A DNA stretch of 29,516 nt from IMG/VR virus record IMGVR_UViG_3300028837_001285, positions 1 through 29,516 of that record. One strand, written 5' to 3'. The DNA is from a virus. Of the stretch, positions 4,715-20,720 are shown piece by piece. Each line of letters starts with the position of its first letter. Positions within the stretch are counted from its first letter, which is position 1. The position numbers and the translations under genes are program-made. A model generated the notes under the pieces. The model worked only from the letters and a program-made list of their open reading frames with translations, made no database searches and was not told where the DNA came from.

Positions 4715-5662
4715 ATGACTCAGGTAGTCAGTGATGACGTTTCCGCTATTCAACCTGAATTGTGGAGCACAATGGTTCAAGTTCCATTGTACAAAAGATT
4801 AGTAGCTCTTGATGTAGCAAATTTGAGGTTTTCAGATACAGTTAAGAATGCTGATATAATTCATATTCCATATTTTGGAAGTTTATCAGCTCAAACTTAT
4901 ACTCCAGGAACAACTCTTTCTGCTACAAATCAAGAATGGGATTACGATACATTAACTGTTTCAACTTACAAGCACTGTACTGTTTATGTTGATAATCCAG
5001 AAGCATTGACAGTTAATATTGACCAGGCAAGAGAATTAGCAGGTGAAGCCGCATATCAGCTTGCTAATGCAATTGACACTGATGTTTTGTCTCAGATTAC
5101 TGGTGCACACGGATTTACTTGTGCAGATGCTGAAGATTTACAAGGAGGAACAAATTTAAGACCAGTTTCAGCTGGTTCAGCAGCCATAATTAATATTTTT
5201 ACAAACGCGAGAAAAGTATTAAGACAAGGCAATGTTGAAGAAGATGGAAACTGGTGTGCTATCGTAACACCTCAAATTGCTCAGTATATTGAAGTAAAAG
5301 CTGCTAATGTTGGATATAATGTAGCTGACGCTACTTTAAGGAACGGTTATGCTGGAGATTTTCTTGGTTTCCAAGTATATATTTCCAATAATCTTCCTTC
5401 AGGTAAATGTTCTGCTATTGCTCCTACTGCTAAGAGTGGAGTGGGAACTGGTCCTGTATCTGCTACATCTTGTAAGAGTATTTACTTTGGTAGAAAAGGA
5501 ACTATTGATGTAATTTTGATGAAAGCACCAGCTCTTGAAATCAGGCAAAAGAGCGATATGATTGGTTCTAACTTTATTACATGGACCGTATATGGTCAGG
5601 GAGTTCTTACCAAGAATCAAAGCAGAGGCAGAAATGTACCCGTACAATCAGGTTATTACTAA
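4715..5662 (+). CDS. Major capsid protein, HK97 fold
   Basis: A 315-residue protein assigned by position after the scaffold and by typical capsid content: QPELWSTMVQVPLYKRLVA at the N-terminus, the IHIPYFGSLSAQTYTPG segment, an E-loop/P-domain-like middle (ELAGEAAYQLANAIDTDVL), and GDFLGFQVYISNNLP near residue 220. It has one of the few clear ribosome sites among the structural genes: AGAGG seven bases before the ATG, fitting high expression. No N-terminal protease-cleaved delta domain is evident. The stop is followed within six bases by the structured RNA element at 5668-5728. Confidence 0.9.
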   Translation: MTQVVSDDVSAIQPELWSTMVQVPLYKRLVALDVANLRFSDTVKNADIIHIPYFGSLSAQTYTPGTTLSATNQEWDYDTLTVSTYKHCTVYVDNPEALTVNIDQARELAGEAAYQLANAIDTDVLSQITGAHGFTCADAEDLQGGTNLRPVSAGSAAIINIFTNARKVLRQGNVEEDGNWCAIVTPQIAQYIEVKAANVGYNVADATLRNGYAGDFLGFQVYISNNLPSGKCSAIAPTAKSGVGTGPVSATSCKSIYFGRKGTIDVILMKAPALEIRQKSDMIGSNFITWTVYGQGVLTKNQSRGRNVPVQSGYY

Positions 5663-5822: not shown

Positions 5823-6036
5823 AAACTTAATAAAAAAACCTAACTTTATTAGATGGAAAGCCAAAAGGTCATTAATCAAAAGATATAAATACTTGCTTGA
5901 AGTTAATAAGATTTTAGAGGAATATATCACTACAAAAATCATAGGTGGTGATAAGAATCGTAGAGATGAATTGTTAAAAAAGCAAAAAGAAAGTGAGGAA
6001 ATGGAAAATATGATAAACTTCTTTAAAAAAGTATGA
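5800..6036 (+). CDS. Small basic helical protein, unknown
   Basis: A 78-residue Lys-rich protein (ATG at 5800; a second in-frame ATG at 5806). Predicted helices cover most of it ([40 protein letters not shown]). It overlaps the HNH remnant by 23 bases at its start and the full HNH gene by ATGA at its end, so it belongs to the same small mobile-type region behind the capsid gene. No family is recognised. Confidence 0.6.
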
Positions 6037-6582: not shown

Positions 6583-7665
6583 ATGGCTTGGCAATCTGGT
6601 ATTTGGTATCACAGAAATGAAATGCCAGCACAAGCCCTTAAAAAAAGAGGACATGGAATAAAACATGTCGCTATTGGAAAAGAAATGCCAGATGAATATC
6701 TTGATTATCCAGATACGGTTATATTCGGAAGGACATATCCACAGGCATTTGACCCAGTTTCCTTGATGAAAGATTTTAAGAAACGGGGAAAAAGAGTTCT
6801 TTATGATATGGATGATGATTTCTGGTCTGTTAGTAAGGATAATCCTTCGTTGATAGTTTCTAATGCCTTTAAGGACCAGTATGAATCACTCATAAAGGAA
6901 TGTGATGCGATTATAACCCCAAGCAATATACTGGCTAAGAAGTTTAAGAAATTAGCCAAAAAACCAGTATTTATTTGTCCTAATGGAGTTAATCTTGATA
7001 TTTATAGGGAAAGACCTCATCAGATGAATAAATTGGTGATCGGATATAGCGGGGCGGCATCTCATTGGAAAGATTTAAGTATAATAGCCGAAGCAATAGA
7101 AAAACTTAGCAATGATTATGATTTTTTCTTTTCACTTTATGGAATGGTTGGAGAATCAATAGAAGCAGCAATGTATTTTTATAAGAAAATGCTTGATAGC
7201 GGTTTTCAACCAGAGAAGAACGAATACTTTAGAAGTGCCTTAGATTTTTATTCTCAACTTAAGAATGTTAAAATGCTTCATGTTCCGTTTCATCCGCCAG
7301 AAATTCATCCGAGTATATTAAGCAGAGCTGACTTTGATATAGGATTAGCACCGTTAGAAGATACAGAATTTAATCGCGGAAAATCCTGTATTAAGTTTTA
7401 TGAATATGCGGCAGTTGGAGCAGTTACTCTTGCTTCAGATATTGAACCTTATAAATCAGAAGTAAGTTATAGGGCTAAGAATACCGCAAAGGACTGGTAT
7501 AAAAAAATTCAGAAGTTAATAGAAGATGAAGAATTTAGAAAAAAACTATTAAAACAACAGCAAGATTATGTAAAGGAAAACAGAAGCTGGGATAAGGTTG
7601 CTATTGATTGGGAATTGGCTTGTCAAAGACCTGGAGGTTTAGAAGTTCTTAATCAAAAAAGATAA
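6583..7665 (+). CDS. GT-B glycosyltransferase (GT4-like)
   Basis: A 360-residue glycosyltransferase using a nucleotide sugar. It shows a Rossmann N-terminal domain with LYDMDDDFW and ITPSNILAKKF, the inter-domain PNGVNLDIY, and the C-terminal donor-binding segment CIKFYEYAAVGAVTLASDIEPY, typical of GT4-like enzymes. The ATG at 6583 is the first in frame, but ten in-frame codons upstream read [10 protein letters not shown], which looks like the missing first beta strand. An ATT at 6553, overlapping the HNH stop, may be the true start. It is the first gene of the cassette and would add a sugar to the glycan that the LicD enzymes could later decorate. Donor and acceptor unknown. Confidence 0.85.
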   Translation: MAWQSGIWYHRNEMPAQALKKRGHGIKHVAIGKEMPDEYLDYPDTVIFGRTYPQAFDPVSLMKDFKKRGKRVLYDMDDDFWSVSKDNPSLIVSNAFKDQYESLIKECDAIITPSNILAKKFKKLAKKPVFICPNGVNLDIYRERPHQMNKLVIGYSGAASHWKDLSIIAEAIEKLSNDYDFFFSLYGMVGESIEAAMYFYKKMLDSGFQPEKNEYFRSALDFYSQLKNVKMLHVPFHPPEIHPSILSRADFDIGLAPLEDTEFNRGKSCIKFYEYAAVGAVTLASDIEPYKSEVSYRAKNTAKDWYKKIQKLIEDEEFRKKLLKQQQDYVKENRSWDKVAIDWELACQRPGGLEVLNQKR

Positions 7666-8129: not shown

Positions 8130-8179
8130 TGAATATATTATTATTTGACTGGAATAATATTTTAACTATAGAAGAATGA
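8129..8179 (+). CDS. 16-residue coupling peptide or GT remnant
   Basis: The short ORF MNILLFDWNNILTIEE starts in TAATG with the previous stop and ends in ATGA with the next start. The sequence resembles the first strand of glycosyltransferases that begin with a hydrophobic strand plus WN. It may be a leftover N-terminus of a lost enzyme that now keeps the operon translationally coupled. Confidence 0.4.
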   Translation: MNILLFDWNNILTIEE

Positions 8180-9069
8180 AAGTATTTTTTACGAACTTTA
8201 ATAATGTTCTTTCAGATTTAAAGAATAAAATAATTGATATTGGTTGGAAAGGAGTTGATTTTATGGAAGCAGACAAAGTAATCCTTTGGAATGAAGTAGG
8301 AGATGATGCCATAATGTTAATTAATTTGGTTTATAAATATAATAAATCAGTAATTACTATCCAGCACGGTAGATATGGAACATCTCGTTATTACCCTCCT
8401 TTTAATCAGCAAATACTATCAGATAAATTATGTGTTTGGGGAATAAGGGATAAAAAAGCATTAGTGGAAGCAGGACATCCAGCAAATAAGATAGAAGTGG
8501 TTGGAACAACTATATTTAATTATCTTAAGCCAAGAAAAAAACATAAAGGAATAAATGTAGTTTATAGTCCAGAACATTGGGCTAATGAAATAGAGGAAAA
8601 TAGACAGGTGGCGGAAGAGTTGCGTAAATTGAAAGATGTTAAGATTATCACTAAATTATTGGAAGGAGAGCATAATGTGGAGTGGTATGATAATCCAGTT
8701 ATTTCTGATAGAAAAAAAGACGGTCATTTAAAAGTATGTGCCGATGTATTATCAAAAGCAGATTTAGTCGTAGGAATATCAGAGGGAACATTTGAACTTA
8801 TGGCTCAATATCTTGATATACCAGTTGTGATTATGAACGAGTGGAATCCTAAACCGTTATTAAATGATGAAAGATATTTAAAATATAGACGGGTAACATC
8901 AGAAGCATCAAAAAAAAGCACCCTAAAGAACCTTTGTAAAGTAGTGAAACAACAACTTAAAAATCCAGATGAGTTAAAAAAAGAAAGAAAAATAGTTGTC
9001 AGAGAGGAAGGAGGTGCCGATATTAAGGATACAGTTGATAGGATTATTAAAATTATAAAAAATGCCTAA
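8176..9069 (+). CDS. GT-B glycosyltransferase / glycerophosphotransferase-like
   Basis: A 297-residue protein with a GT-B appearance. VITIQHGRYGTSRYYPP matches the QHG loop seen in CDP-glycerol glycerophosphotransferase, polysialyltransferase-like and 2-epimerase-like enzymes. It is followed by SDKLCVWG, the IEVVGTTIFNYL strand, and the donor-side segment ADLVVGISEGTFELMAQYLDIPVVIMN. Given the TagD-like CDP-glycerol synthase homologue at 17744, transfer of a polyol phosphate is possible, but an ordinary nucleotide-sugar donor is equally compatible. Start chosen at the ATGA overlap with the 16-residue ORF. Its end overlaps the radical SAM gene by 8 bases. Confidence 0.7.
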   Translation: MKVFFTNFNNVLSDLKNKIIDIGWKGVDFMEADKVILWNEVGDDAIMLINLVYKYNKSVITIQHGRYGTSRYYPPFNQQILSDKLCVWGIRDKKALVEAGHPANKIEVVGTTIFNYLKPRKKHKGINVVYSPEHWANEIEENRQVAEELRKLKDVKIITKLLEGEHNVEWYDNPVISDRKKDGHLKVCADVLSKADLVVGISEGTFELMAQYLDIPVVIMNEWNPKPLLNDERYLKYRRVTSEASKKSTLKNLCKVVKQQLKNPDELKKERKIVVREEGGADIKDTVDRIIKIIKNA

Positions 9070-10588
9070 TTTTTTATTAATATCACCGACTTTAATTTCA
9101 GAAGCACCAATGACGCTTGCTATGTTGGCAGGAGTGTTAAAGGAAAAGGGATTTTCAGTAAAAACTGCTGTTAATACCTTTAAAAGACCCCTAAAAATAG
9201 AAGATTTTGTAAATAAAGCAAAGGAATGTAAAGCGGATTTGGTTGGTATCAGTATGATGACCTTTGATATAATTTTTACTTATAAGTTGATAAAGAGATT
9301 AAAGGAGGCAGGATTTAATGTAATCGTAGGCGGACCTCATCCAACCGATTGTCCAGAAGAATGTATTGAAGCTGGGGCTGATGTTGTGGTTCAAGGTGAA
9401 GGGGAAGCCGTTTTAAAGGACATTTGCGATGAATATCCCAATATCAAAAAGGGAATTAGGGAAAGAAAACCACCAGTGGATTTAGATACGTTACCCTCGC
9501 CAGATTTAGAAATATTTGATTTGGACTTATTTAGAGGAGACGATAATTTAATTAGGGGATTTCATAGGATATATACGACAAGGGGTTGTCCAGGAAGATG
9601 TACTTTTTGCGATTGGCAGGTTTTTAAGCAGAATATTCGTTTTTATCCAGTAGATATTATTATAGGTGAAATCAAAAAAAGAGCGGATAAATACGGAATA
9701 ACCACATTTTCAATAGCAGATGATTGTTTCACTATTAACCACCAAAGGGTTTATGAGTTTTGTAAAAAAATAAGCAAGATTAAGCCAAAGATAACTTGGA
9801 GGGCAAATGCGAGAGCCAATTTAGTTAATGCTCAATTGTTAAAGGCAATGAAGGAATCTGGCTGTCATTCAGTGGCATTCGGATTAGAGAGTGGAGACCC
9901 AGAAACATTGAAGCGAGTAAAGAAGTTTGTAACCTTGGAACAGAATATAAAAGCACCTTGGTTGGCTCACGAGGCAGGATTAGAGGTATATGGTTGTTTA
10001 ATGACAGGGTTTCCTTGGGAAAGATTAGAAAATGTTTATAATCAAATAGATTTTATTCATAAAGTTTGGGATGCTGTATCTTTATTTCAGGTATCAGGTT
10101 CTTTAATGCCTTTTCCAGGAACAGAGATTTATCGTGAGTTTGCCAAGAAATATGGATTTGAGAAGTATTGGTTGAGACCAGAATATCAAAAATACGGAAT
10201 ACAAGTATATCAGAATGTTAAAAATCCTTATGCTGTTAGCACTTTTTACCAAAGAACATTTTTTGATGATACATATATTCAGAAAGATGTTTTCTTTAAA
10301 TATACAGAAGAATATAAAGAAGGTGTTAGGAAAATGGTAAAGGAGATAGGGAAGCATAATTTATTGTTTATGTTAAAAAATAAACCATATAAGCAGAAAC
10401 TTTATTATTTATTGGGAAGATTATCAATGTTTGGCTATGATTATTTGCCAGGATTAGAACAAAAAATAGGAGGTAAATTATATGATTTATTTGCCCAAAA
10501 AGGTCAAAGAAGTTCCATAGAAAAATTAAGAGACAAACGAAGGGGTTTTGTTAAGAATAAAACATTTGAGTTAATGAAAAAAAAGTGA
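9062..10588 (+). CDS. B12-binding-type radical SAM enzyme
   Basis: A 508-residue class B radical SAM protein. Residues 1-130 form a cobalamin-binding-like Rossmann domain (FLLISPTLISEAPMTLAMLAG; VIVGGPHPTDCPEE; GADVVVQGEGE). The cluster-binding C176xxxC180xxC183 in RGCPGRCTFC follows, then GLESGDPETLKRV (SAM-binding GxES) and GCLMTGFPWE. No DxHxxG motif is seen, which is usual when B12 is bound without a lower His ligand. Such enzymes methylate unactivated carbon or rearrange carbon skeletons. Fom3 of fosfomycin synthesis, which methylates CMP-HEP, is in this broad class, and this cluster appears to make CMP-HEP. That link is inference, since related proteins also sit in ordinary glycan clusters. 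An ATGCCTAA overlap joins it to the gene before. Confidence 0.85.
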   Translation: MPNFLLISPTLISEAPMTLAMLAGVLKEKGFSVKTAVNTFKRPLKIEDFVNKAKECKADLVGISMMTFDIIFTYKLIKRLKEAGFNVIVGGPHPTDCPEECIEAGADVVVQGEGEAVLKDICDEYPNIKKGIRERKPPVDLDTLPSPDLEIFDLDLFRGDDNLIRGFHRIYTTRGCPGRCTFCDWQVFKQNIRFYPVDIIIGEIKKRADKYGITTFSIADDCFTINHQRVYEFCKKISKIKPKITWRANARANLVNAQLLKAMKESGCHSVAFGLESGDPETLKRVKKFVTLEQNIKAPWLAHEAGLEVYGCLMTGFPWERLENVYNQIDFIHKVWDAVSLFQVSGSLMPFPGTEIYREFAKKYGFEKYWLRPEYQKYGIQVYQNVKNPYAVSTFYQRTFFDDTYIQKDVFFKYTEEYKEGVRKMVKEIGKHNLLFMLKNKPYKQKLYYLLGRLSMFGYDYLPGLEQKIGGKLYDLFAQKGQRSSIEKLRDKRRGFVKNKTFELMKKK

Positions 10589-11238
10589 GATTAGTATTTA
10601 ACTTATTACAACATATGGATAACCCAATATATCAAACAGGAGATGAAATAAAGTTTCTTAAAGAGGAATTAAAGTTGATAAAAGAAAAACTTGATAAAAA
10701 AGAATTGAAAGGAGAAATAGCAGAAGTTGGAGTAATGTGGGGCGGTTCGGCTAAGATAATAACTAAAATAATTCCAGATAAGACAGTATATTTATTTGAT
10801 ACATTTGAAGGACTGCCAGATGATATGGATTATACTGTAGACCCCACAGATTATTTTGTAGGTGCTATGGCAGTAGATTTGGATAAGGTTAAGAAGTTTC
10901 TTAAGAATTGTAATGTTAAGATATATCCAGGAATATTTCCTCAAGAAACAAGTAAATATATAAAAGATAAGAAATTTGCTTTTGTTCATATAGATGTAGA
11001 TATTTATAAAGCAACGAAGGATACATTGGAGTTTTTTTATCCAAGATTAGAAGTTGGCGGTTCAATAGTTATACACGATTACCCGCTTCATAGGGGAGTT
11101 CAGAAAGCAGTGGACGACTTTATGGAGAATAAAGGAACATTCCAAAAAGAGAAATGGAAGAAATGGAAACGAGATTATTTAATAAGAACGGCATTTAGAC
11201 AATTAATAATAAGAAAAAAATATGAAAAACATAATTAA
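10585..11238 (+). CDS. TylF/macrocin-type SAM methyltransferase
   Basis: A 217-residue class I methyltransferase. IAEVGVMWGGSAKI is the SAM-binding glycine loop; VYLFDTFEGLP and the metal-site-like HIDVDIYKATKDTLEFFYP and SIVIHDY match the TylF family, which O-methylates sugars. The start is GTG in a GTGA overlap with the radical SAM stop; an ATG at 10615 (MDNPIYQTG) is an alternative with little loss. It probably caps or modifies a hydroxyl of the glycan. It could equally act on a phosphonate hydroxyl, which nothing here decides. Confidence 0.85.
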   Translation: MRLVFNLLQHMDNPIYQTGDEIKFLKEELKLIKEKLDKKELKGEIAEVGVMWGGSAKIITKIIPDKTVYLFDTFEGLPDDMDYTVDPTDYFVGAMAVDLDKVKKFLKNCNVKIYPGIFPQETSKYIKDKKFAFVHIDVDIYKATKDTLEFFYPRLEVGGSIVIHDYPLHRGVQKAVDDFMENKGTFQKEKWKKWKRDYLIRTAFRQLIIRKKYEKHN

Positions 11239-12562
11239 AGACCTTTACAAATTAAATAGATGTTTATTAGGAGAGGGTTATGATAATGCCCTTGAATATA
11301 TCAAGATGCTTATAAAATTAGAAGTGATAGAAATACCAAGCGGAACTAAATTTGATACTTGGACTGTTCCCGATGAATGGATAGTCAGGGATGCTTGGGT
11401 TAAGTTTAACGGAAAGAAAATAATTAATTATAAGAAAGAACCTCTTAGTTTGGTTATTGGTTCGCTTCCATTTAAAGGAAAAGTAAAACTAAAAGAACTT
11501 AAAAAGCATTTACATTATTCAGATGAATCACCGAATTCTATTCTTTATCAATATATGTTTTATGATAAGGATTGGGGATTTTGTATGCCTAAATCCAAAA
11601 TCAGAAAAAAGGTAGTTGAAGGTTGTGGCAAGGGAACTTGCGCTCCAGAACTTAAGAAATATGACCCAACAGTAGGACAGGTAATAATAGAAGGGGCTAC
11701 TGATAAGCCGATATCACCTAAATTTGAAAATGTATTAGAAGAAGGAGAATACGAAGTAATGATAGATACCGAGTATAAGCCAGGCAAAATGAAAATAGGA
11801 GTACATACCATTAAGGGAAAATCAGATAAGGAAATACTTTTATTTGCTCATTTAGACCATCCTTTTCAGGCAAATGACAATTTATCAGGAGTAGCTTGTT
11901 TGATAGATATGGCGAAACAATTAAAGAAAGCGAAGTTTAATCACACCATAAAACTTGTATTTTGTCCAGAAACAATAGGTTCAATAGGATATGCTTTTAC
12001 TCAGGATATTTCTAATGTAGATTTTGTGATAGCAGTTGATTCAGTGGGGAATAAAAATACATTACTGCTCCAAAAGAGTTTTGACCAAGAAGCCAAAATA
12101 AACAAGGTAGCTCATTTAGCAATTCAAAGTATAGGAGAAAGTTATAGAAAAGGAATGTTTAGAGTATTATTAGGTTCAGATGAATATGCTTTTAATGACC
12201 CAGATATAGGAATACCAGGAGTAATGTTTTCCAGAATACCTTACAAGGAATATCATACATCAGATGACAAGCCAGAACTTATTGATTATAAGGGGATAAA
12301 AAATGTTCAGAAAATAATAATGAAAATTGTAGATATTTATGAAAATGATTATATTCCGATAAAGAATTTCAAGGGTCCGTTAAGGAGAACTAAATACGGA
12401 GCCCAAACACCTTATAAGCAATTAAACCTATCTTATGATTATATGTTTTATTCAATGAATGGAAAAAAGTCATTAGTGGAATTGTGTTGTGATTTCGCAC
12501 TTAATTTTGATTATACTTATGAGTTGTTGGAAAAAATTAAAAAAGATGGATTTGTAAAATGA
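11222..12562 (+). CDS. M28-like/DUF4910 aminopeptidase-fold protein
   Basis: A 446-residue protein with the zinc-peptidase core of M28/DUF4910 (COG4310-like) proteins found in surface polysaccharide loci. Candidate metal ligands are His210 (AHLDHP), Asp219 (AND), Glu250 (CPETIG), a later Asp in VDSVG or GSDEYAF, and His345 in EYHTSDD. A C-terminal winged-helix-like segment (KSLVELCCDFALNFDYTYELL) is also usual for this family. The length looks complete. The substrate is unknown; the family's repeated presence next to sugar genes suggests amide removal or transfer on a modified sugar. It overlaps the methyltransferase by 17 bases. Confidence 0.75.
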   Translation: MKNIIKDLYKLNRCLLGEGYDNALEYIKMLIKLEVIEIPSGTKFDTWTVPDEWIVRDAWVKFNGKKIINYKKEPLSLVIGSLPFKGKVKLKELKKHLHYSDESPNSILYQYMFYDKDWGFCMPKSKIRKKVVEGCGKGTCAPELKKYDPTVGQVIIEGATDKPISPKFENVLEEGEYEVMIDTEYKPGKMKIGVHTIKGKSDKEILLFAHLDHPFQANDNLSGVACLIDMAKQLKKAKFNHTIKLVFCPETIGSIGYAFTQDISNVDFVIAVDSVGNKNTLLLQKSFDQEAKINKVAHLAIQSIGESYRKGMFRVLLGSDEYAFNDPDIGIPGVMFSRIPYKEYHTSDDKPELIDYKGIKNVQKIIMKIVDIYENDYIPIKNFKGPLRRTKYGAQTPYKQLNLSYDYMFYSMNGKKSLVELCCDFALNFDYTYELLEKIKKDGFVK

Positions 12563-13149
12563 AGATAGTAGGATTATTAGGGGCAAAGGCGAATAGTAAA
12601 CGGCTCCCTAATAAAGCATTGCTGGATTTTCACGGAAAGCCAATGTTTCAATGGAATGTAGAAAAAGGTGTGAAGATATTTAAAAAAATGTATGTTACTT
12701 CTGATAGTAAGGAAATCTTGAAGAAATCAGAGGAACTTGGAGCAATTCCCATAATGAGATATGACCCGAAATTGATGAAATGTCCAAATATTACTTATTA
12801 CAAGCACGCTTTACAGTATATGGATAATCCAGATGTGATAGTTGCTATTCAGATTAATTCTCCGACAGTTGATGTTAAACTTATTAAAAGAGTTAAGGAG
12901 TTAATGGAAAGAGGATATGATGAGGTTAAAACCTGCCACGAGGATTATACTGATTATGGTTCTGTTTGGGCAATTAATGTTAAAAAGTTAAAGGTATATT
13001 CAAATCCTTATAAAGCCAATCCAAATGTTTGGATTATAGATAGGTCAGTGGATATACATAATAAAAATGATTATCGCAGAGCTCGGTCACAATTTCAACG
13101 GAAACATCAAATTGGCAAAGGTAATGATAGAGGAAGCAAAAGCCTGTAA
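12559..13149 (+). CDS. NeuA-like acylneuraminate cytidylyltransferase
   Basis: A 196-residue GT-A nucleotidyltransferase. The CTP-binding N-terminus is GAKANSKRLPNKALLDFHGKP (an R-S-K-R-xP-xK variant). MYVTSDSKEIL, VAIQINSPTVD and the final WIIDRSVDIHNKNDYRRA match CMP-sialic acid synthetases, VDI being the usual end. It would couple CMP to a nonulosonic or similar 2-keto acid sugar made by the NeuB-like protein next door. After the expected end, about 28 further residues overlap the NeuB gene in another frame and look unselected. The length without them is slightly short for NeuA (about 220). ATGA joins it to the gene before. Confidence 0.8.
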   Translation: MKIVGLLGAKANSKRLPNKALLDFHGKPMFQWNVEKGVKIFKKMYVTSDSKEILKKSEELGAIPIMRYDPKLMKCPNITYYKHALQYMDNPDVIVAIQINSPTVDVKLIKRVKELMERGYDEVKTCHEDYTDYGSVWAINVKKLKVYSNPYKANPNVWIIDRSVDIHNKNDYRRARSQFQRKHQIGKGNDRGSKSL

Positions 13150-13741
13150 AGCAGATGTAGTTAAAATTCAATTATATGATGTTGATAAGATAAAAAAGCC
13201 ATATCAAAGTAGATATTTTGAATTATGGGCTTCTCAAATTGATAAAGAAGAATTAAAGGAACTTAAAAAACACGCTGATAAAGTGGGAATAGAGTTTATA
13301 GCTTCGGCATTTGATGTAGAGAGGGTTAAATGGTTAGAGGAGATAGGCGTTAAACGCCATAAATTGGCTTCCAGAAGCATTTTTGACAAAGAGTTGATAC
13401 AAAGTATGGAAAAGACGGGAAAACCGATTATAGCGTCTTTGGGGGCTTGGAATAAAAAAGAGTTTCCAAAGATTAAAAATGCTCAATTTCTTTATTGTGT
13501 TTCAGAATATCCAGCATATATTACAAAAGATATGTTTCCAGAAAAATTTGATAAGTATTCAGGATTTTCAGACCATACGATAGATAATTTTTGGGCTAAA
13601 CAGGCAATAATCAGGGGAGCAAAAATAATAGAAAAACATTTCACATTAAACAAGTCAATTCCAGGTTGCGACCAATTAGGAAGTGCTGAACCTATTAAAT
13701 TAAGAGAATTAGTAAAATTTTCTAAAAGATATGGACAGTAA
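13067..13741 (+). CDS. NeuB-like synthase lacking the SAF domain
   Basis: A 224-residue TIM-barrel enzyme that would condense PEP with a hexosamine to give a nonulosonic acid. Signatures: IIAELGHNFNG at the start, DVVKIQLY, VSEYPAY, GFSDHT, and EKHFTLNKSIPGCDQLGSAEP. Typical NeuB proteins are about 340 residues with a C-terminal antifreeze-like (SAF) domain that closes the partner's active site; here the protein stops right after the barrel. The start ATG lies 83 bases inside the NeuA frame. PEP is also the substrate of the PEP mutase in this cluster. No NeuC-type epimerase is seen, so the precursor would come from the host. Confidence 0.82.
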   Translation: MIIAELGHNFNGNIKLAKVMIEEAKACKADVVKIQLYDVDKIKKPYQSRYFELWASQIDKEELKELKKHADKVGIEFIASAFDVERVKWLEEIGVKRHKLASRSIFDKELIQSMEKTGKPIIASLGAWNKKEFPKIKNAQFLYCVSEYPAYITKDMFPEKFDKYSGFSDHTIDNFWAKQAIIRGAKIIEKHFTLNKSIPGCDQLGSAEPIKLRELVKFSKRYGQ

Positions 13742-14219
13742 AAAAGCGTTTGAGGATTTAAAGTTAGTTAAAAAAGTGTGTGATATTTGTAAAATACCTT
13801 TCTTTTTAACTTGTGGAACAGCTTTAGGAATATATAGAGACGGAGAATTTTTGATAGATGATAAAGATATAGATATAGGAATAATAGGACGAGACAAAAG
13901 AGAAATAATTAAAGATGGTTTGAAAGAAAATGATTTTAGGGTAATACAATTCAATCCCAAATTTACTGGTTATCACTTAACAGTAAAGAGAAATATAGTT
14001 ATAGATGTTCATTTTTTTGATAGGGAGGGAGATTTTTATCAATGTTATGTTAAATATCAAAAGCCTTGTATTAGTTTTCCAGCAGAATTTGGCAAATTTA
14101 AGAAAATTAATTTTAAAGGATTAAAATTTGATATTCCTGCTTTAACTGAGAAATATTTAACTTATGTTTATGGCAACTGGAAAGATAAAACCAGTAGAAA
14201 ATCTGCTAAAAATGGATAA
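13731..14219 (+). CDS. LicD-family phosphotransferase 1
   Basis: A 162-residue nucleotidyltransferase-fold protein. The core motif CGTALGIYRDGEFLIDDKDIDIG is the LicD signature: glycine turn, Arg, then paired acidic metal ligands. RNIVIDVHFF gives the third acidic strand. LicD moves phosphocholine from CDP-choline to sugars; homologues move other phospho headgroups. Here the likely donor is the cluster's own CMP-phosphonate (inference). It starts 11 bases inside NeuB. The final codons NG-stop come from the 43-base repeat unit at 14207. Confidence 0.83.
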   Translation: MDSKKAFEDLKLVKKVCDICKIPFFLTCGTALGIYRDGEFLIDDKDIDIGIIGRDKREIIKDGLKENDFRVIQFNPKFTGYHLTVKRNIVIDVHFFDREGDFYQCYVKYQKPCISFPAEFGKFKKINFKGLKFDIPALTEKYLTYVYGNWKDKTSRKSAKNG

Positions 14220-14300
14220 TCAAAAAGCAATAAAAGATTTAAAAATTATTAAAAATGGATAATCAAAAAGCAATAAAAGATTTAAAAATTATTAAAAATG
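14207..14300 (+). repeat. 43-bp tandem duplication spanning LicD junction
   Basis: Two identical 43-base copies (14207-14249 and 14250-14292) are followed by 8 bases of a third. Each copy begins TAAAAATGGATAATC. The period is not a multiple of three. Copy 1 supplies the stop of LicD 1 and a duplicate start encoding MDNQKAIKDLKIIKNG then stop; copy 2 supplies the working start of LicD 2. Removing one copy would leave both genes intact with an ATGGATAA overlap. It looks like a recent slippage event. Confidence 0.95.
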
Positions 14301-14905
14301 TTTTTGATAAGTACAAAGTACCTTTTTTCTTAGCTTATGGTACTTGTCTTGGGGCATATAGAGATAAAGATTTTTTACCAGATGATGATGATATAGATTT
14401 AGTAGTTGTTGAACCAATAGATTTTAAAATCCGTAAAAAAATAGGTTGGATGTTATATGACCTTGGATTTAAAAATCCTATAATGGGTTTTAATGTATTT
14501 AATAGAATGGAACCAATGGAAATTGGCTATAATGGAGATGAAAAAACAGGAATAATAGTGTGTGAAAAAAGTGTAGAGTTTTCTATATTCTTTTTCAAGG
14601 AAGAAGATTGTGATATTCACGGAAAAGAAATGGTATGTATTCCAAAATTAGGAGCATTAAGATTAATATCAAGCCCAAGTAAATTTTACAAAAAACCTCA
14701 AACAATTAAGTTTAAAGGAGAACAATTTTTAATTCCAAGTCCAGTTGAAGAATATTTAAAGTTCACTTATGAGGATTGGAAAGACCCATTAAAAAGAGAC
14801 CATGGATTGACATATTTTGAGATGCACCCAGAGAAAATGGAAATGCTGGATAAATTAGCAGATAAACAGCAAGTATATCATCATGTAAAACGTTCAGAAG
14901 AATAA
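14255..14905 (+). CDS. LicD-family phosphotransferase 2
   Basis: A 216-residue LicD-type enzyme with AYGTCLGAYRDKDFLPDDDDID near the N-terminus, closer to canonical LicD than its neighbour. VEFSIFFFKEED is the third acidic strand, and IPSPVEEYLKFTYEDWKDP is the typical LicD C-terminal piece. It shares fold and N-terminal layout with LicD 1 but is diverged, so this is an old gene pair or two separate acquisitions rather than part of the recent 43-base duplication. The ATG at 14255 is in repeat copy 2; the ATG in copy 1 is closed by a stop after 16 codons. Probable role: second headgroup transfer, or a different acceptor. Confidence 0.84.
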   Translation: MDNQKAIKDLKIIKNVFDKYKVPFFLAYGTCLGAYRDKDFLPDDDDIDLVVVEPIDFKIRKKIGWMLYDLGFKNPIMGFNVFNRMEPMEIGYNGDEKTGIIVCEKSVEFSIFFFKEEDCDIHGKEMVCIPKLGALRLISSPSKFYKKPQTIKFKGEQFLIPSPVEEYLKFTYEDWKDPLKRDHGLTYFEMHPEKMEMLDKLADKQQVYHHVKRSEE

Positions 14906-14967: not shown

Positions 14968-15720
14968 ATGTTGAAAGACCTGAATAAAAAATCACTTAAA
15001 ATACTTGAAGCACATAACGGTTTATCAGCCAAAATGATAGAACATAGTAAATTAGATGGAATATGGGTTTCTTCATTAACCCATAGTTTAAGCAAGGGAT
15101 TACCTGATACAGAATTGATACCTTTAAGTGAAAGAGTTGATTTAGTTCGTGAAATGAGACGGGTAGCTACTAAACCGATTATAGTTGATTGCGATACTGG
15201 CGGACAGGCAGAACATTTTGAATTTCACGCTAAATGGTTTAAAGATGCTGGGGCTGATGCTTTAATAATAGAAGATAAGACCTTTCCAAAAAAGAATAGT
15301 TTATTAGATGTTGACCATAAATTAGAGGATGTAGATAAGTTCTGCGAGAGAATAAAAGCAGGCAAAAAATCAGGAATAATGATAATCGCCAGATTAGAGT
15401 CGCTTATCGCTAAGAAATCTATCTACGATGCCCTTATAAGGGCTGAAGCATATGTAAATGCTGGAGTGGACGGAATAATGATACACTCCAAAAAAGAGGT
15501 TTCAGCAGATGAGGTAATGGAATTTGCTAAGAAGTTTAGGGAAAAATGGGATTTACCGTTAGTGGCTGTTCCTACAACATATAAATTACCTGAAGAACAT
15601 CCGTTTAATATAGTAATATATGCTAATCATTTACTGAGGGCTTCTTATAAAGCAATGATAGATACGATAAATGGGAAAAGAGAATTAGCTTCAATAGATG
15701 AAATATTAACAATAATATAA
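14968..15720 (+). CDS. pepM: Phosphoenolpyruvate mutase
   Basis: A 250-residue isocitrate-lyase-superfamily TIM barrel converting PEP to phosphonopyruvate, the entry step of nearly all known C-P bond synthesis. The diagnostic mutase loop EDKTFPKKNS (residues 102-111) is present, with Lys108, Asn110 and Ser111 matching K120, N122 and S123 of the mussel enzyme. Metal and active-site residues Asp47, Asp74, Asp76 (VDCDTGG), Glu102, Arg142 (IIARLES) and His173 (IMIHSK) also align. PEP hydrolases and lyases of the superfamily lack this loop signature. It is somewhat short (about 295 in mussel) and lacks the fused cytidylyltransferase domain, which is encoded separately at 17304. The reverse reaction is favoured, so the decarboxylase next door is needed to drive flux. 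Confidence 0.95.
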   Translation: MLKDLNKKSLKILEAHNGLSAKMIEHSKLDGIWVSSLTHSLSKGLPDTELIPLSERVDLVREMRRVATKPIIVDCDTGGQAEHFEFHAKWFKDAGADALIIEDKTFPKKNSLLDVDHKLEDVDKFCERIKAGKKSGIMIIARLESLIAKKSIYDALIRAEAYVNAGVDGIMIHSKKEVSADEVMEFAKKFREKWDLPLVAVPTTYKLPEEHPFNIVIYANHLLRASYKAMIDTINGKRELASIDEILTII

Positions 15721-15721
15721 T

Positions 15722-15817
15722 ATGCCATCAGGAATTTATAAAAGAAATCCTAAAAATGAAAAGATAAGAAGAAGAAAGATTAGTAAGTCTTTATGTGGAA
15801 ACAAAAGAACTCTATGA
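15722..15817 (+). pseudogene. NUMOD3-like peptide between pepM and ppd
   Basis: A 31-residue ORF with MPSGIYKRNP and RRRKISKSLCGN, matching the opening and the KIS-x-SL-x-GN core of NUMOD3 modules in homing endonucleases. No HNH domain follows. It starts two bases after pepM ends and ends in ATGA with the next gene. It is a remnant or a captured DNA-binding module. Confidence 0.55.
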
Positions 15818-16158
15818 GTTTTTATATAGGAATACCAGATAAATTATTAGTTAAATGGCTTGGCAAGAAAGATTATATAAAACCAGCAGATGAAGGAGAA
15901 GCAATAGGAATAGGAGCAGGATATTATTTGGCAATAAGAAAAAAAGCAACAGTGTTTATGTCGGCAGACGGTTTCTGTAATGCCTTAAATCCCTTAACCA
16001 GTTTAGTGATACCAGAAGGAATTAAAATGAATCTTGTAATATCAACTGGCAGAAAAGAATCAGCTCATTATGTAATGTCTAATTCTATTAAAGTAATTTT
16101 AGAAGCAATTAAATATGACCCAAAAAGAATATCTGTCAAGTTTATTGAAGCGAAATAA
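15814..16158 (+). CDS. Phosphonopyruvate decarboxylase, alpha (PYR) subunit
   Basis: A 114-residue protein matching the TPP pyrimidine-binding domain of phosphonopyruvate and sulfopyruvate decarboxylases: GIPDKLLVKWLG, then PADEGEAIGIGAGYYLA with the catalytic Glu27, then FMSADGFCNALNPLTSL. The start at 15814 (MSFYIGIPD) gives an ATGA overlap with the NUMOD3-like peptide and begins at the conserved region; an upstream ATG at 15793 would add seven unconserved residues. It must pair with the beta subunit to form the active site. It removes CO2 from phosphonopyruvate to give phosphonoacetaldehyde, pulling the mutase reaction forward. It is shorter than ComD-type subunits (about 165-170). Sulfopyruvate decarboxylase is excluded only by context. 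Confidence 0.82.
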   Translation: MSFYIGIPDKLLVKWLGKKDYIKPADEGEAIGIGAGYYLAIRKKATVFMSADGFCNALNPLTSLVIPEGIKMNLVISTGRKESAHYVMSNSIKVILEAIKYDPKRISVKFIEAK

Positions 16159-16492
16159 AGAGGCGATTATAGTTGGTTCCCTTGGAACGATTAGTTATGA
16201 CTTAAAGGAAATATCTCATAAACATAAGATTATAATTAAGGGAGCAATGGGTTGTGTTATGGGAGTTGGATTAGGAATAGCATTAAATACCGACAAGAAA
16301 GTAATTGTTCTTATAGGAGATGGTTCGTTTTTAATGAAAATGGGAAGTATGGCTACTATTTTAAGATATAAGTTAAAAAATCTGAAAGTGATAATTTTAA
16401 ACAATAACTCCTATAAATCTTGTGGAGGTCAAGAAACTAATTTTAAATACATTAAAAAATATGTGCCTTTTAAAATAATAAATATATCGTGA
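16115..16492 (+). CDS. Phosphonopyruvate decarboxylase, beta (PP) subunit
   Basis: A 125-residue TPP diphosphate-binding domain. GDGSFLMKMGS (GDG at 68-70) and LNNNSY (NN at 96-98) make the standard TPP/Mg motif with the usual 28-residue spacing. GAMGCVMGVGLGIAL and the N-terminal IIVGSLGTISYDL fit decarboxylases of the Ppd/ComE group. The gene overlaps the alpha subunit by 44 bases in another frame. Single-chain Ppd proteins are about 370-400 residues; here the two parts total about 240, an unusually compact form. It ends in a GTGA overlap with the reductase gene. Confidence 0.85.
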   Translation: MTQKEYLSSLLKRNKEAIIVGSLGTISYDLKEISHKHKIIIKGAMGCVMGVGLGIALNTDKKVIVLIGDGSFLMKMGSMATILRYKLKNLKVIILNNNSYKSCGGQETNFKYIKKYVPFKIINIS

Positions 16493-17307
16493 AAAAGTTT
16501 TATCTTCATTATAAAGAAGTTCCAGAAAATCCTTCACTTAAGTTCGCTGTTGATATAGTTAATAAGGTTAGGGAATATGATGAAATAATTTCAGAGGGAG
16601 GTGGCTCAACAATAGATGTCGGTAAATATATTTCTTACATTTTAGATATTCCTCATACAGCAATTCCGACAACGGCAGGAACTGGAAGCGAAGTAACCAA
16701 GTATGCTGTGTTCATTCATAATAAAAAGAAGATGTCATTAGAGGATGATAAGTTTATTCCAGATAATTATATTTTAGACCCCTCAAAAGTTGTTTCATTA
16801 CCACCAAAACAAACAGCTTCATCAGGATTAGATGCTCTTTCTCAAGCCATAGAATCATATTGGTCTCCCAAATCTACATTTAAAAGTAGATGGTATGCCA
16901 AGAAAGCAATAGGTTTGATAATGAATAGTTTATGGAATTCGTATAATTATCCTTTAAGTGAAGTATTTAGGTTTAATATGTTAAAGGCGGCAAATTATTC
17001 TGGTAGGGCGATAAATATAACCAAAACAGGGGTATGCCACGCAGTATCATATCCATTAACAATTCATTATGGAATACCTCACGGAATTGCTTGTATTATG
17101 ACTTTGCCTCAAATGATATTATTTAATGATTTCAGGTTAATTTCAGCTTCAAAGATAGAAAGGCTTATTAAATCGTTGGATATTGATGTTTATTCAATTA
17201 GGAAGAAAATTGATAAAAATTTGATAATAAAGGAAGTTTTTGACTCGGATAGAGTCCAAAATAATCCAATAAGGATTACAGAAGAAGATTTAAAAATTAT
17301 ATTATGA
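16489..17307 (+). CDS. Iron-ADH-family phosphonoacetaldehyde reductase
   Basis: A 272-residue protein of the iron-dependent alcohol dehydrogenase family. NAD-site GGGSTIDVGK (37-46), TTAGTGSEVT (61-70), GLDALSQAIESYWS (113-126) and CHAVSYPLTIHYGIPHG (183-199) are clear. Metal ligands Asp115, His184 and His198 are kept, but the usual His four residues after the Asp is Gln119. The family is normally about 380-400 residues; here roughly the first 70-80 residues before the NP motif and the C-terminal helices are missing or reduced. Start is GTG in a GTGA overlap. In context it would reduce phosphonoacetaldehyde to 2-hydroxyethylphosphonate. The short length leaves some doubt that it is fully active. 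Confidence 0.8.
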   Translation: MKKFYLHYKEVPENPSLKFAVDIVNKVREYDEIISEGGGSTIDVGKYISYILDIPHTAIPTTAGTGSEVTKYAVFIHNKKKMSLEDDKFIPDNYILDPSKVVSLPPKQTASSGLDALSQAIESYWSPKSTFKSRWYAKKAIGLIMNSLWNSYNYPLSEVFRFNMLKAANYSGRAINITKTGVCHAVSYPLTIHYGIPHGIACIMTLPQMILFNDFRLISASKIERLIKSLDIDVYSIRKKIDKNLIIKEVFDSDRVQNNPIRITEEDLKIIL

Positions 17308-17747
17308 AAATATATTTCCCAATGACAGCTGATATTTTAACTCCTGGACATATTAAATGCCTTAAATTTTTAAGGGATTATAAGGGACAAATGCATCCTT
17401 TCATAATAATAGGACTTTTAACTAATAAGGCATTAAAAGGATACAAGAATCCAGTAATGTCCTTTAAGGATAGAAAGTATATTTTAGAAAATTTAGATGT
17501 TAAATATCATCATTTAGAGTGTATAGATATAGTATCACAAAATAGTTTAGACCCTTCCAAGAATATTGAGAAATATAAACCAGTGGCAATAGCCAGTGGA
17601 GATGGCTGGGAAAAAGAGGAGTTGGAAGCGATTAAAAAATACAATTTAATTAAAATAAATATTCGTTTAAAAGGTGAAAAAAAGAAAAAATATTCATCAA
17701 GTAAATTAAAGGTCAATCGTTCTTTTAACAAAGGAGGTGTAAAATGA
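17304..17747 (+). CDS. CTP:phosphonate cytidylyltransferase
   Basis: A 147-residue Rossmann nucleotidyltransferase. MTADILTPGHIKCL (HxGH-type motif with Thr in the first His place), IIGLLTNKAL, YKPVAIASGDGW and the KYSSSKL loop resemble the cytidylyltransferase domain often fused to PEP mutase, including those that make CMP-HEP or CMP-aminoethylphosphonate. Presence directly after PepM, Ppd and the reductase, with ATGA coupling, supports activation of the phosphonate as a CMP ester, the donor form a LicD enzyme would use. The basic tail (GEKKKKYSSS...KGG) is loosely conserved. Confidence 0.85.
   Translation: MKIYFPMTADILTPGHIKCLKFLRDYKGQMHPFIIIGLLTNKALKGYKNPVMSFKDRKYILENLDVKYHHLECIDIVSQNSLDPSKNIEKYKPVAIASGDGWEKEELEAIKKYNLIKINIRLKGEKKKKYSSSKLKVNRSFNKGGVK
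17730..17739 (+). promoter_or_regulatory. Strong ribosome binding site
   Basis: AAAGGAGGTG ends four bases before the ATG at 17744. It is close to a perfect anti-16S match, in contrast to the SD-less starts of the cassette genes before it, and marks a change in gene origin or expression level. Confidence 0.85.
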
Positions 17748-18178
17748 AAAAAGTATTCTTTCAGGGAGCATTTGATATTCTCAATTACGGGCATATCAGG
17801 GCGATAGAAGCCGCCAAACAGCAGGGTGATTATCTTATTATAGGTTTAAATACGGACGAGTTAATTCGCGACTATAAAAACCGCGAGGTAATTCTTCCCT
17901 ATGAGCACCGAAAGGTAATCCTTGAGGCGATTAAATGGGTTGACAAGGTTGTCCCAGCAAGGGAGGTCAGTCCTCTTGACTTGCTCAGAAGATTAGACAT
18001 TTATGTCTATATCATAGGAACAGAGTGGAAAGGAACAAAGATGAAGGAAATCGCCTATATGAAATCAAAAGGCGGTCAGGTAGTTTTTACTCCCAGATAT
18101 AAAGGGACAATATGTTCTTCTGACATTAGAAGAAGAATAGCCAAACAAGCACTTTCTTTAAAGGGTAATTCTCTTTAG
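17744..18178 (+). CDS. TagD-like glycerol-3-phosphate cytidylyltransferase
   Basis: A 144-residue cytidylyltransferase of the TagD/COG0615 type. GAFDILNYGHIRAIEAAKQQGDYLIIGLNTDE holds the HxGH motif (first His replaced by Asn, a known variant), and YEHRKVILEAIKWVDKVV and CSSDIRRRI (ISSTxIR-type CTP loop) complete it. It may make CDP-glycerol for the QHG-type transferase at 8176, or use another phosphorylated polyol or sugar. A strong SD and visibly higher GC and different codon use set it apart from its cassette neighbours, suggesting separate acquisition. It is the last gene of the cassette. Confidence 0.85.
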   Translation: MKKVFFQGAFDILNYGHIRAIEAAKQQGDYLIIGLNTDELIRDYKNREVILPYEHRKVILEAIKWVDKVVPAREVSPLDLLRRLDIYVYIIGTEWKGTKMKEIAYMKSKGGQVVFTPRYKGTICSSDIRRRIAKQALSLKGNSL

Positions 18179-18199: not shown

Positions 18200-18913
18200 A
18201 TGCAATTTAACGAAGCAACAAATGATTCAGGTTTAATTCAAGATGTGGATTTTTTATGCGGCACAACAAGTGCCTCTTATCCCATTAATGATAAAACCAG
18301 AAATATAAATAATCATTATAACGCTACTGTAGTAAAAATTTGGCAGGCAGTAGATGGTTGGCAATATGATGACAGTAATAGAACTGATTTACCTATAGCT
18401 ACTACTACTTTAGTTGATGCTCAACAGGATTATGAATTGCCTTCAACTGCCCAAAGAATAGAAAGAGTGGAGGTTTTAAGTTCAAATGGTAATTATAAAA
18501 AAATAAAACAGATTGATTGGCACGATATAGGTATAGCAACTTCAGAATATCTGGAAACAAATGGATTACCACTTTATTATGATTTAGTTGGAGATTCTAT
18601 CTTTTTATATCCAGCTCCAGCAGATGGTTATGTTACATTAGCAACAGGATTGAAACTTTATTTTAACAGGGAACCAGACCAATTTACTACTGGAGATACT
18701 TCTCAAGAACCAGGGATTCCAAAAGCATTTCATAGAATTCTTTCATTGGGAGCAACGATTGATTTTCTAAAACCAGGGAATAGAAGGGAAAGATTAGTAG
18801 CGATGAAAGAAAAATTAGAAAGAGGACTTCAAAAATTTTATAGCAAAAGACATATAGAAAGAAAATCATCAATAAGACCTTTTGATAAAAAAAGATGGCG
18901 ACAATATGAATAA
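18200..18913 (+). CDS. Head-tail adaptor/connector protein
   Basis: A 237-residue protein resembling head-completion adaptors of short-tailed phages: an N-terminal helix region, [33 protein letters not shown], and [25 protein letters not shown], a pattern common in these connectors. An Arg/Lys-rich C-terminus ([19 protein letters not shown]) ends it. In most phages it follows the capsid gene directly; here 12.5 kb intervene. No SD is visible. It would bind the portal after packaging and carry the tail. Confidence 0.75.
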
Positions 18914-20720
18914 ATCACAATACAATAAAATAAAAAAAATAATAAACCAGTTGGAGAAAGAGGCATTAGAACAAGGAATTGACATAACTTCATTTGAATT
19001 TAACGAACTTCTTAATAAATTACTTAATGAGAAAGGTTTTAGTTTGGAAGATTATTTGGTAGCAGAAGAAAAATATGAAAATAATGAGTTAGAATTAAAG
19101 GGTATTTCTCAAGTAAAGGGTGAGAAGGGCGAACAGGGAATTCAAGGACCAAAAGGTGATGATGGAAATTCTATTCAAGGACCAAAAGGTGATAAGGGTG
19201 AGAAGGGTGAGAAAGGCGATAAGGGTGAAAAAGGCGATAAGGGCGATAAGGGAGATAAAGGGAATTATGGAGACCCAGGACCAGAGGGACCAAAAGGAAA
19301 AGACGGAAAATCAGTAGACAAAAAGAAAGTATTTGATGAATTATCTGGATTTGTAGAAAAAAAAGCGAAAACATTTATATCATCAACTTTAGAAGGACAC
19401 GAAAGTCCAATAAACAATAAAGTTCAGGAGGCAATTATAGAACCAGTTAGAAGATTAGGTATGGGATTACAGGGGCAAATAGATACCTTAAGAACCGATT
19501 TAACCAATGAAAATCTTTGGGACAGAACAGCGGCGACATCAACCTTAACTCCTCATACCGCTAATGATAATGTGAATTTAGGAAGTGGAACCTTTACAAC
19601 AACTGGAGCTTTAACAATAGGAGGCAATGCTACATTAGGAGATGCCGATACTGATTATCACGGAATAAACACGGCTCCTGTTGCCCAGAATATGATTACA
19701 TCTTGGTTTGCCAACTCAACCAATGATGATGTGGCTTATATGTGGTATGGCACAGGCGATTATCAGGGAGATGTTGGAGCAAGTGGAGTTGGTGGATTAG
19801 TTGGAGTTTATCTTAATCTTCTTCACCGACAAGGTTCGGGTGATGGTGGCTCCAGTGTTTATAATGTTTATGGATTTCAGACGGATTTAAATGGGGCATA
19901 TTTAACTTTTGATGATGTAAGTTATATTCAAAGGGCGTTTGATGCGGATTTAATTTGGAGTGGAGCATCTACTGGAAATACAACATTATCTTTAATAGGG
20001 GGTGATATTCGTTCTTCAAGTAATTTAGGCGTTACTTCAGCAACTACAAAATACGGGCATAAAGTTGCTTTATCAGGAACAGCTGATACTCATTATGGAT
20101 TTTATGCTTCGGTTTCAGGTGCTACTAAAAATTGGGCTTTTTATAATTCTTTGGGTGAGATGTTTATGGGAGGGGATTCTAAAAAAAGTTATTGGGGGGC
20201 TGGAAATGATGCTTATGTGGAATTTGACGGTGATTCTATGAATATAGTAGCTAATGCTGTAACAGGAACAGACGATTTGGAATTAACAGGACAAATTATA
20301 AAAATCAATGGAATACTTCAAGCTAACGATGTGCGGATACAAGATGTTATAAACTTATTTCAGACAGGAACTGGAGTATCAGGCAATACTAACTTTGGAA
20401 GAAATGTCTATTATGATGGTTCATATAAAAGGATGGTAGCGGACAATGACGCTATGTTATTACAATTCCTCTCTGATGGACATTTTGATATTTATACAGA
20501 ATCGGATGGAAATACTACTGCTAATAGTGTTATTACTTTTGCTAAAAGATTTAGTTTAGATACAAATGGAAACTTAGATTTATCAGGAACTATCAATACA
20601 ACCTCTGATGATAATTGGGATTTAAATGACTATACTGCTGGAGCTCCTACCTGCACAGGATATATAACTGTAACAATAAACGAAACAGAATATAAATTAT
20701 TAGCGAGATTAGAACCATAA
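18906..20720 (+). CDS. Collagen-like tail fibre
   Basis: A 604-residue fibre. Residues 1-65 are predicted helical, a likely virion attachment. About residues 70-135 are Gly-X-Y repeats rich in GEK, GDK and GPKG, forming a collagen triple helix. A helical trimerisation stretch follows ([16 protein letters not shown]), then a large beta-rich domain with Thr/Ser/Gly/Asn-rich strands and a short conserved-looking end ([19 protein letters not shown]). The ATG at 18906 is preferred, giving an ATGAATAA overlap with the adaptor stop; an upstream TTG is possible. The C-terminal part most likely binds the receptor. No chaperone/peptidase tail domain is obvious. Confidence 0.85.
19119..19311 (+). repeat. 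Gly-X-Y coding repeat
   Basis: Nine-base-phased GGT/GGC/GGA-AAG/GAT-containing repeats encode the collagen-like stalk. Third bases vary between units, so the repeat is kept at protein level and is open to slippage in length. Confidence 0.9.

Follow-up and report, generated by a model that had tools for sequence, protein, structure and literature searches.

A predicted cassette for phosphonate synthesis and activation in a glycan-tailoring island among phage structural genes

The window analyzed here is the whole of a 29,516-nucleotide stretch of viral DNA (IMG/VR record IMGVR_UViG_3300028837_001285), in which five intact open reading frames occupy positions 14968-17747 of the plus strand, the strand that encodes every feature described below. 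As an earlier note on this sequence had claimed, the block lies in the phage structural region, between the genes for the major capsid protein (4715..5662; phrog_267, E 1e-37) and an SU10-type head-tail adaptor (18200..18913; PF24175, E 5e-11). The note also described the reading frames as overlapping, which holds for most of them and fails at the junction between the first and the second, where a 72 bp gap, the sole one in the block, was found. The enzyme families that it had named, PepM, Ppd, Fe-ADH and cytidylyltransferase, were each matched in HMM searches (TIGR02320 and PF13714, TIGR03297, TIGR03405 and PF01467, respectively). The PepM, both Ppd halves and the Fe-ADH score under their NCBIfam equivalog cut-offs, as is consistent with short, divergent proteins. 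The cassette enzymes are miniaturised, and dN/dS values of 0.03-0.26 between close viral pairs reveal purifying selection on all cassette genes, ruling out a reading of the block as a set of pseudogenes.

The first gene (14968..15720) encodes a phosphoenolpyruvate mutase (PepM) of 250 aa, which carries the EDKxxxxxNS motif as EDKTFPKKNS and the PF13714 fold (154.6 bits), and which keeps the motif residues when aligned with solved PepM, in agreement with the active site ascribed to it before. It scores far higher on the PepM model TIGR02320 (275.8 bits, E 3e-82) than on the phosphonopyruvate hydrolase model (126.9) or on the lyase model PrpB (88.3), and its shortfall from the equivalog cut-off of 319.55 fits its short length. 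The next two genes correspond to the two-part phosphonopyruvate decarboxylase of the earlier note: PpdN (121 aa; 15793..16158; TIGR03297, E 1.2e-13) is a PYR-domain half with the catalytic Glu in DEGEAIGIGAGYYLA, and PpdC (125 aa; 16115..16492; PF02775, E 1.2e-18; TIGR03297, E 3.5e-25) is a TPP-binding half with GDG...NN and GGQ motifs. Compared with the full-length Ppd chain of some 370 aa, PpdN has a reduced loop without the conserved W-R-G-E, and PpdC aligns without the C-terminal ~60 aa. A deletion of the Ppd C-terminus and the ADH N-terminus peculiar to the window was considered and rejected, since relatives have the short forms too. The split is common to most viral cassettes, whereas cellular Ppd is nearly always a single chain. 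Sulfopyruvate decarboxylase (ComD/ComE) belongs to the same family and is likewise two-subunit, but PpdN and PpdC adjoin PepM and favor the phosphonopyruvate model TIGR03297 (50.9 and 88.8 bits) over ComD/ComE (32.1 and 78.4). By sequence, the pair is classed as a divergent two-subunit Ppd relative.

The fourth gene (272 aa; 16489..17307) encodes a compact reductase that does belong to the iron-ADH family, as had been proposed. Its top match among 18 models is the phosphonate Fe-ADH model TIGR03405 (PhpC/FomC/PsrA; E 6.5e-46), with 156.7 bits that lie far under the cut-off of 423.7. The protein keeps the GGGS nucleotide-binding motif and the metal ligands D115, H184 and H198, with Gln and not His at the fourth ligand position; the same D-Q-H-H set is found by alignment in sulfoacetaldehyde reductase (6jko), which is also the closest fold (TMq 0.90) to its structural model (pLDDT 96.3). 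The fifth gene (147 aa; 17304..17747) encodes a cytidylyltransferase, CyT1, with the motifs MTADILTPGH, GLLTNKALKGYK, SGDGWE and YSSS. Its PF01467 match is weak (E 6e-6, 27 bits), and its sole credible PDB match is 5x3d (E 3.9e-9), the cytidylyltransferase domain of Fom1; with the (H/T)xGH signature present as TPGH, CyT1 has the fold features of a Fom1-type enzyme. In fosfomycin synthesis, that Fom1 domain makes CMP-2-hydroxyethylphosphonate (CMP-HEP; PMC6697681). Immediately downstream, outside the conserved cassette and absent from the earlier note, CyT2 (17744..18178) is a TagD/RfaE-like nucleotidyltransferase (PF01467, 63 bits; glycerol-3-phosphate cytidylyltransferase 1coz, E 6e-23).

The cassette is not confined to this record. 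It occupies the same capsid-to-adaptor slot in eight other contigs of the same phage lineage, and its gene order and flanks are repeated in five (L014, L017, L161, L164 and L168). PepM was found in 43 IMG/VR contigs in all, and EDKxxxxxNS is kept in each of the 28 viral PepM tested. These relatives were recovered with alignment queries: a single PepM sequence gave no matches among viral contigs, nor did the adaptor alone, and an adaptor alignment that included L006 returned 41 loci. One PepM contig, L018, is T4-like, with gp23, portal and terminase. Among the large contigs, gp23 and T4-portal searches confirmed L018 alone, and TerL searches also L016, L019 and L027, so that many contigs of the V2 viral PepM clade are viral on IMG/VR assignment. 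Two database matches labeled 'Bacteriophage sp.' (L003 and L004) were discarded as viral evidence, being bacterial by gene content and placed within cellular PepM clades. Together with a linear record that begins with a run of G, these bacterial-looking matches might suggest an artefact, the block being either the product of a chimeric assembly or contaminating bacterial DNA fused to a phage contig. Yet independent contigs from other datasets show this same block between the same two flanks, capsid and adaptor, and the viral PepM sequences form a clade apart from the cellular ones (support 100/98). We exclude a chance arrangement, give a chimera practically no credence, and consider the module recurrent in viruses rather than a single oddity. 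With regard to the host, no tRNA was found that might hint at it, and TerL matches cultured phages at just ~30%.

Upstream of the cassette lies a set of genes that the earlier note had missed, comprising two LicD genes, NeuA, NeuB and glycosyltransferases. LicD2 (14255..14905), a predicted phosphonyl transferase, matches PF04991 well above the cut-off (46.6 versus 22.6 bits, E 5.7e-12) and displays the GTxLGxxR...DDDID motif in GTCLGAYRDKDFLPDDDDID; it is preceded by a second LicD-like protein (LicD1, 13731..14219; PF04991, E 2.3e-7), a NeuB-family synthase of 224 aa without the C-terminal SAF domain (13067..13741; PF03102, E 1e-42) and a NeuA/KdsB-like CMP-sugar synthetase (12559..13149; PF02348, E 4.4e-15). 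Further towards the capsid gene are a glycosyltransferase (6583-7665), a protein of GT-B fold (8176-9069), a B12-radical SAM protein (9062-10588), a TylF methyltransferase (10585-11238) and a DUF4910/M28 protein (11222-12562), the GT-B protein assigned by its fold and the others by Pfam. LicD accompanies PepM in 7/7 sister loci as against 1/26 of those without PepM (Fisher p 1.9e-6, with no phylogenetic correction). The cassette belongs to an island for glycan tailoring that includes a LicD-type transferase, and for this reason the activated phosphonate probably serves as an intermediate and not as an end product. CyT1 and LicD could instead act on an ordinary phosphate ester, with the PepM block unrelated or vestigial, as the weak PF01467 match of CyT1 and the occurrence of LicD without PepM in L119 might indicate. 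We regard this as very improbable, given that CyT1 is nearest to the Fom1 domain and not to TagD, which its neighbor CyT2 does match, that a CyT1-homologous domain is fused to PepM in other viral contigs (V2 clade), and that purifying selection acts on every gene of the cassette. Two further arrangements were seen among these contigs: CyT is fused to LicD in L013, and a CDP-glycerol glycerophosphotransferase-like gene adjoins CyT-PepM in L029.

With its gene content, order, motifs, conservation, recurrence and selection directly observed, the locus can be assigned a candidate pathway, in which we infer the enzyme activities, the order of substrates, HEP as the product, LicD as the transferase and the virion as the target. 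PepM would convert phosphoenolpyruvate to phosphonopyruvate, which PpdN and PpdC would jointly decarboxylate to phosphonoacetaldehyde, the substrate predicted from sequence and model for the compact Fe-ADH; its putative reduction with NAD(P)H would yield HEP, and CyT1 is predicted to join CTP and HEP into CMP-HEP. The motifs, the TIGR03405 match with its sulfoacetaldehyde reductase fold and the Fom1-like CyT all point to such a make-and-activate scheme, which withstood each computational check applied to it. The earlier note had put the scheme forward, drawing the product identity from the lack of an aminotransferase or dioxygenase; indeed, the AEP transaminase PhnW/AepZ (TIGR03301) was detected in 0/19 records and in the positive controls. 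Another phosphonate might nonetheless be made, be it AEP through a host transaminase, phosphonoacetaldehyde itself or a methylated, Fom3-like product. On a 28 kb record, L141 has PepM, Ppd and CyT with no Fe-ADH found, L127 and L165 have just a mini-ADH of 161-168 aa located elsewhere, and the window holds a B12-radical SAM gene. Fom3 methylates CMP-HEP, but a Fom3-like cassette step was rejected for the B12-radical SAM gene, which is not co-distributed with the cassette (it occurs in L122 without PepM, and L017, L164 and L168 lack it). As an ADH is found in nearly every cassette and PhnW in none of the records, we deem a different product quite unlikely.

From CMP-HEP, the LicD-family protein encoded just upstream would transfer the HEP phosphonyl group to a sugar, the acceptor being supplied by the island glycosyltransferases and NeuA/NeuB. 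A virion protein would be the likeliest target, because the island is soluble, has capsid and tail genes around it and differs from one sister phage to another; the host surface and DNA are other possible targets. In cellular phosphonate clusters, LicD-like transferases are usually employed to tailor the cell surface (PMC6697681), and according to a proposal by Acker et al., phosphonate glycans lower viral killing (PMC8931226), so the pathway might serve to remodel host glycans, for instance to block superinfection, and not to decorate particles. The window island, however, shows no membrane protein, flippase or polymerase, and no transmembrane segments save one hydrophobic core stretch in PpdC, and the position of the cassette between capsid and adaptor genes suggests late expression. 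A role at the host surface thus seems unlikely, though less so than the other alternatives. On balance, we rather favor a phage that makes CMP-HEP and uses LicD to move HEP onto an island-built glycan, most likely on the virion, with the cassette as cargo in the structural operon.

The early fosfomycin pathway of Streptomyces (Fom1, Fom2, FomC) takes the same four steps to CMP-HEP, with PepM, Ppd, Fe-ADH and a PF01467-type CyT. In the window, by contrast, CyT is separate from PepM, Ppd is split, the enzymes are shorter and the cassette sits in a phage structural operon next to glycan genes; no Fom4-like epoxidase match appears among the annotated ORFs, and the window's B12-radical SAM gene shows no linkage to the cassette. 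Bacterial phosphonyl-tailoring clusters, which combine PepM, a nucleotidyltransferase and LicD (Rice et al. 2019, PMC6697681), likewise place nucleotidyl activation of a phosphonate beside LicD-like transferases and glycan genes. The characterized ones use the AEP pathway and PntC (PF12804), whereas the window has Fe-ADH, a PF01467 CyT, no PhnW and a viral carrier. Borg extrachromosomal elements also carry a likely PepM-cytidylyltransferase fusion on a non-chromosomal element, in a glycoconjugate region, but they are giant archaeal elements and not tailed phages, and no split Ppd or ADH cassette among structural genes is described in the passages on them considered here (PMC12660748). The cultured Vibrio phage Va2 (MW073017) has an annotated PepM (TIGR02320, 89 bits) and a Ppd-like TPP enzyme (TIGR03297, 152 bits). 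Its PepM is very remote, with EDKx6NS and an extremely long branch, its Ppd is unsplit, the genes lie beside ribonucleotide reductase and not capsid genes, and no Fe-ADH was found on the record.

De novo synthesis of the C-P bond has hitherto been credited to cells, with the Borgs a recent hint of it beyond them, and no phage-borne cassette of this kind was found in the open-access literature searched. Miniaturised enzymes that form a viral branch of their own, and that recur in phages whose capsid genes are unrelated, would be an unrecognized potential source of phosphonates, and the two-gene decarboxylase and reduced dehydrogenases (161-287 aa) among them may be useful as minimal enzymes. 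The cassette would also add new chemistry to phage glycosylation. More tentatively, and with the odds somewhat against it, tailed phages of several unrelated lineages might carry phosphonate-modified virion glycans, a C-P coat laid down through viral CMP-phosphonate and LicD. If so, such a virus-made, phosphatase-stable coat could protect the particles or imitate the chemistry of host surfaces. Host phosphonoglycans have been proposed as a defense against viruses (PMC8931226), and should phages produce that chemistry as well, the defense would turn into an arms race open to testing.

The window spans a complete linear IMG/VR virus record of 29,516 bp, on which a small terminase-like ORF, TerL (phrog_2), a portal-like gene (weak phrog_332 match) and the major capsid protein (MCP; phrog_267) are followed by a cargo island of about 12.5 kb, the adaptor (SU10-type; PF24175) and further structural genes. 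The nine consecutive G at the contig start (1-9) are possibly a sequencing or assembly artefact of the end, and a protein with collagen-like GXY repeats (18882-20720; PF01391, E 6e-7) lies immediately 3' of the adaptor. The presence of the predicted five-gene phosphonate block that the earlier note had claimed at 14968-17747 is confirmed by intact ORFs and by family, motif and PDB matches for each step. All five ORFs lie on the + strand and overlap, save for a 72 bp gap 3' of the PEP mutase gene (PepM). The PepM protein matches TIGR02320 (E 3e-82), carries the motif EDKTFPKKNS and aligns along its length with solved PEP mutases. Phosphonopyruvate decarboxylase (Ppd) is split at the domain boundary into PpdN and PpdC, in which the catalytic Glu and the TPP motif GDG...NN are both retained; the best model for the Fe-ADH-family reductase (ADH) is TIGR03405, phosphonate Fe-ADH; and the sole credible PDB match of the cytidylyltransferase (CyT) is 5x3d, the Fom1 CyTase domain, a known maker of CMP-hydroxyethylphosphonate (PMC6697681).

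The weakest step is that of the ADH, a 272 aa protein that is shorter than normal at both its N- and its C-terminus. The top PDB match of its AlphaFold2 model (alignment of 29; pLDDT 96.3, pTM 0.92) is 6jko (E 3e-20, TMq 0.90), a sulfoacetaldehyde reductase, which acts on the sulfonate counterpart of phosphonoacetaldehyde. Where the classical Fe-ADH metal site reads Asp, His, His, His, both proteins align with Asp, Gln, His, His.

The cassette is recurrent, and no one-off. One IMG/VR profile search returned 26 PepM-bearing viral contigs, two additional profile searches 14 more, and L127 and L141 came to light through an adaptor search; with the window this makes 43 IMG/VR contigs, some near-identical and many of them fragments. 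The motif EDKxxxxxNS is present in all 28 viral PepMs examined. A tree of 112 PepMs places the window inside an eight-member viral clade (V1; support 100/98) apart from cellular sequences, and a second, sixteen-member viral clade (support 100/100) has CyT fused N-terminally to PepM, as in Fom1, followed by PpdN, PpdC and an ADH of about 260 aa. Two contigs carry Fe-ADH homologues away from the customary cassette position, and these do not reach half the normal length, at 168 aa (L127:350-856) and 161 aa (L165:5519-6004).

The split Ppd and short ADH are a viral style rather than damage, since cellular Ppd is nearly always unsplit and dN/dS between close viral pairs is 0.03-0.26 for every cassette gene. 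Cellular loci encode Ppd as a single chain of at least about 350 aa, the exceptions being a contig-edge fragment (L074) and L041, a 4,160 bp Thermoplasmatota MAG contig that combines split Ppd, CyT-PepM and LicD, a LicD-family transferase. In the PepM tree L041 lies near the window's viral clade, and this contig may itself be viral, placed in an archaeal bin.

Within the window's lineage the same slot holds the cassette in L014, L017, L127, L141, L161, L164, L165 and L168, contigs which also carry MCP and/or adaptor homologues. Elsewhere it lies downstream of an unrelated MCP and head protease (L013); T4-like L018 has gp23, T4 portal and TerL on its 96 kb record, TerL is present in L016, L019 and L027, and the remaining PepM contigs are counted as viral on IMG/VR classification only. 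In sister phages (L119, L121, L122, L006) the MCP-adaptor position holds other sugar genes, or glycan genes but no PepM, which marks it as a hotspot of glycan cargo. At the left border of the window's island, an HNH/NUMOD3 homing-endonuclease-like gene (6033-6557) could contribute to cargo exchange. The island also encodes a conserved GT-B-fold protein without Pfam match (8176-9069), whose top fold matches are NeuC-like UDP-GlcNAc 2-epimerases (TM about 0.6), and a 224 aa NeuB-family synthase without SAF domain (13067-13741); many of its enzymes are smaller than their cellular counterparts.

LicD proteins are known partners of CDP-choline-type activation. They adjoin phosphonate clusters in bacteria (PMC6697681), and among adaptor-lineage loci LicD occurs in 7 of 7 with PepM vs 1 of 26 without (Fisher p 1.9e-6, related phages counted as independent). 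Pfam places LicD in all eight V1 records, L013 has a LicD domain fused to CyT, and in L029 a CDP-glycerol glycerophosphotransferase family gene directly precedes CyT-PepM. Together, these associations support a putative hand-over of the CyT product to LicD. A search of 19 records for the AEP transaminase PhnW gave no match, which argues against AEP as the product. Pfam-unmatched proteins adjoining PepM (L023:8340-9566, L018:10841-11869, L019:7338-8153) resemble alkaline-phosphatase/sulfatase-fold enzymes by eye and might act on a phosphonate ester.

No description of a phage-, virus- or AMG-linked PepM or phosphonate-synthesis cassette was found in the open-access papers searched. A Bay of Bengal survey names 'phosphonate metabolism' among AMG pathways without detail, and PMC12660748 reports a likely PepM-CyT fusion in Borgs. 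Among cultured phages, remote PepM-like and Ppd-like genes were found only in Vibrio phage Va2 (MW073017; 4092-10197), flanking ribonucleotide reductase genes. There the PepM-like protein (EDKx6NS) has 434 aa with a C-terminal domain of no known type and the Ppd-like enzyme is unsplit; these genes are apparently of separate origin and possibly connected with the modification of nucleotides or DNA.

As to what the window's phage would modify, the host surface and DNA are both possible targets. Hydropathy reveals no transmembrane segments in the island proteins except one PpdC stretch, which falls within the conserved core of PpdC, the island sits in the structural operon, and mycobacteriophage virions are known to be glycosylated, according to work cited in PMC12619734. 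On these grounds, we favour virion proteins as the probable target of phosphonate modification.
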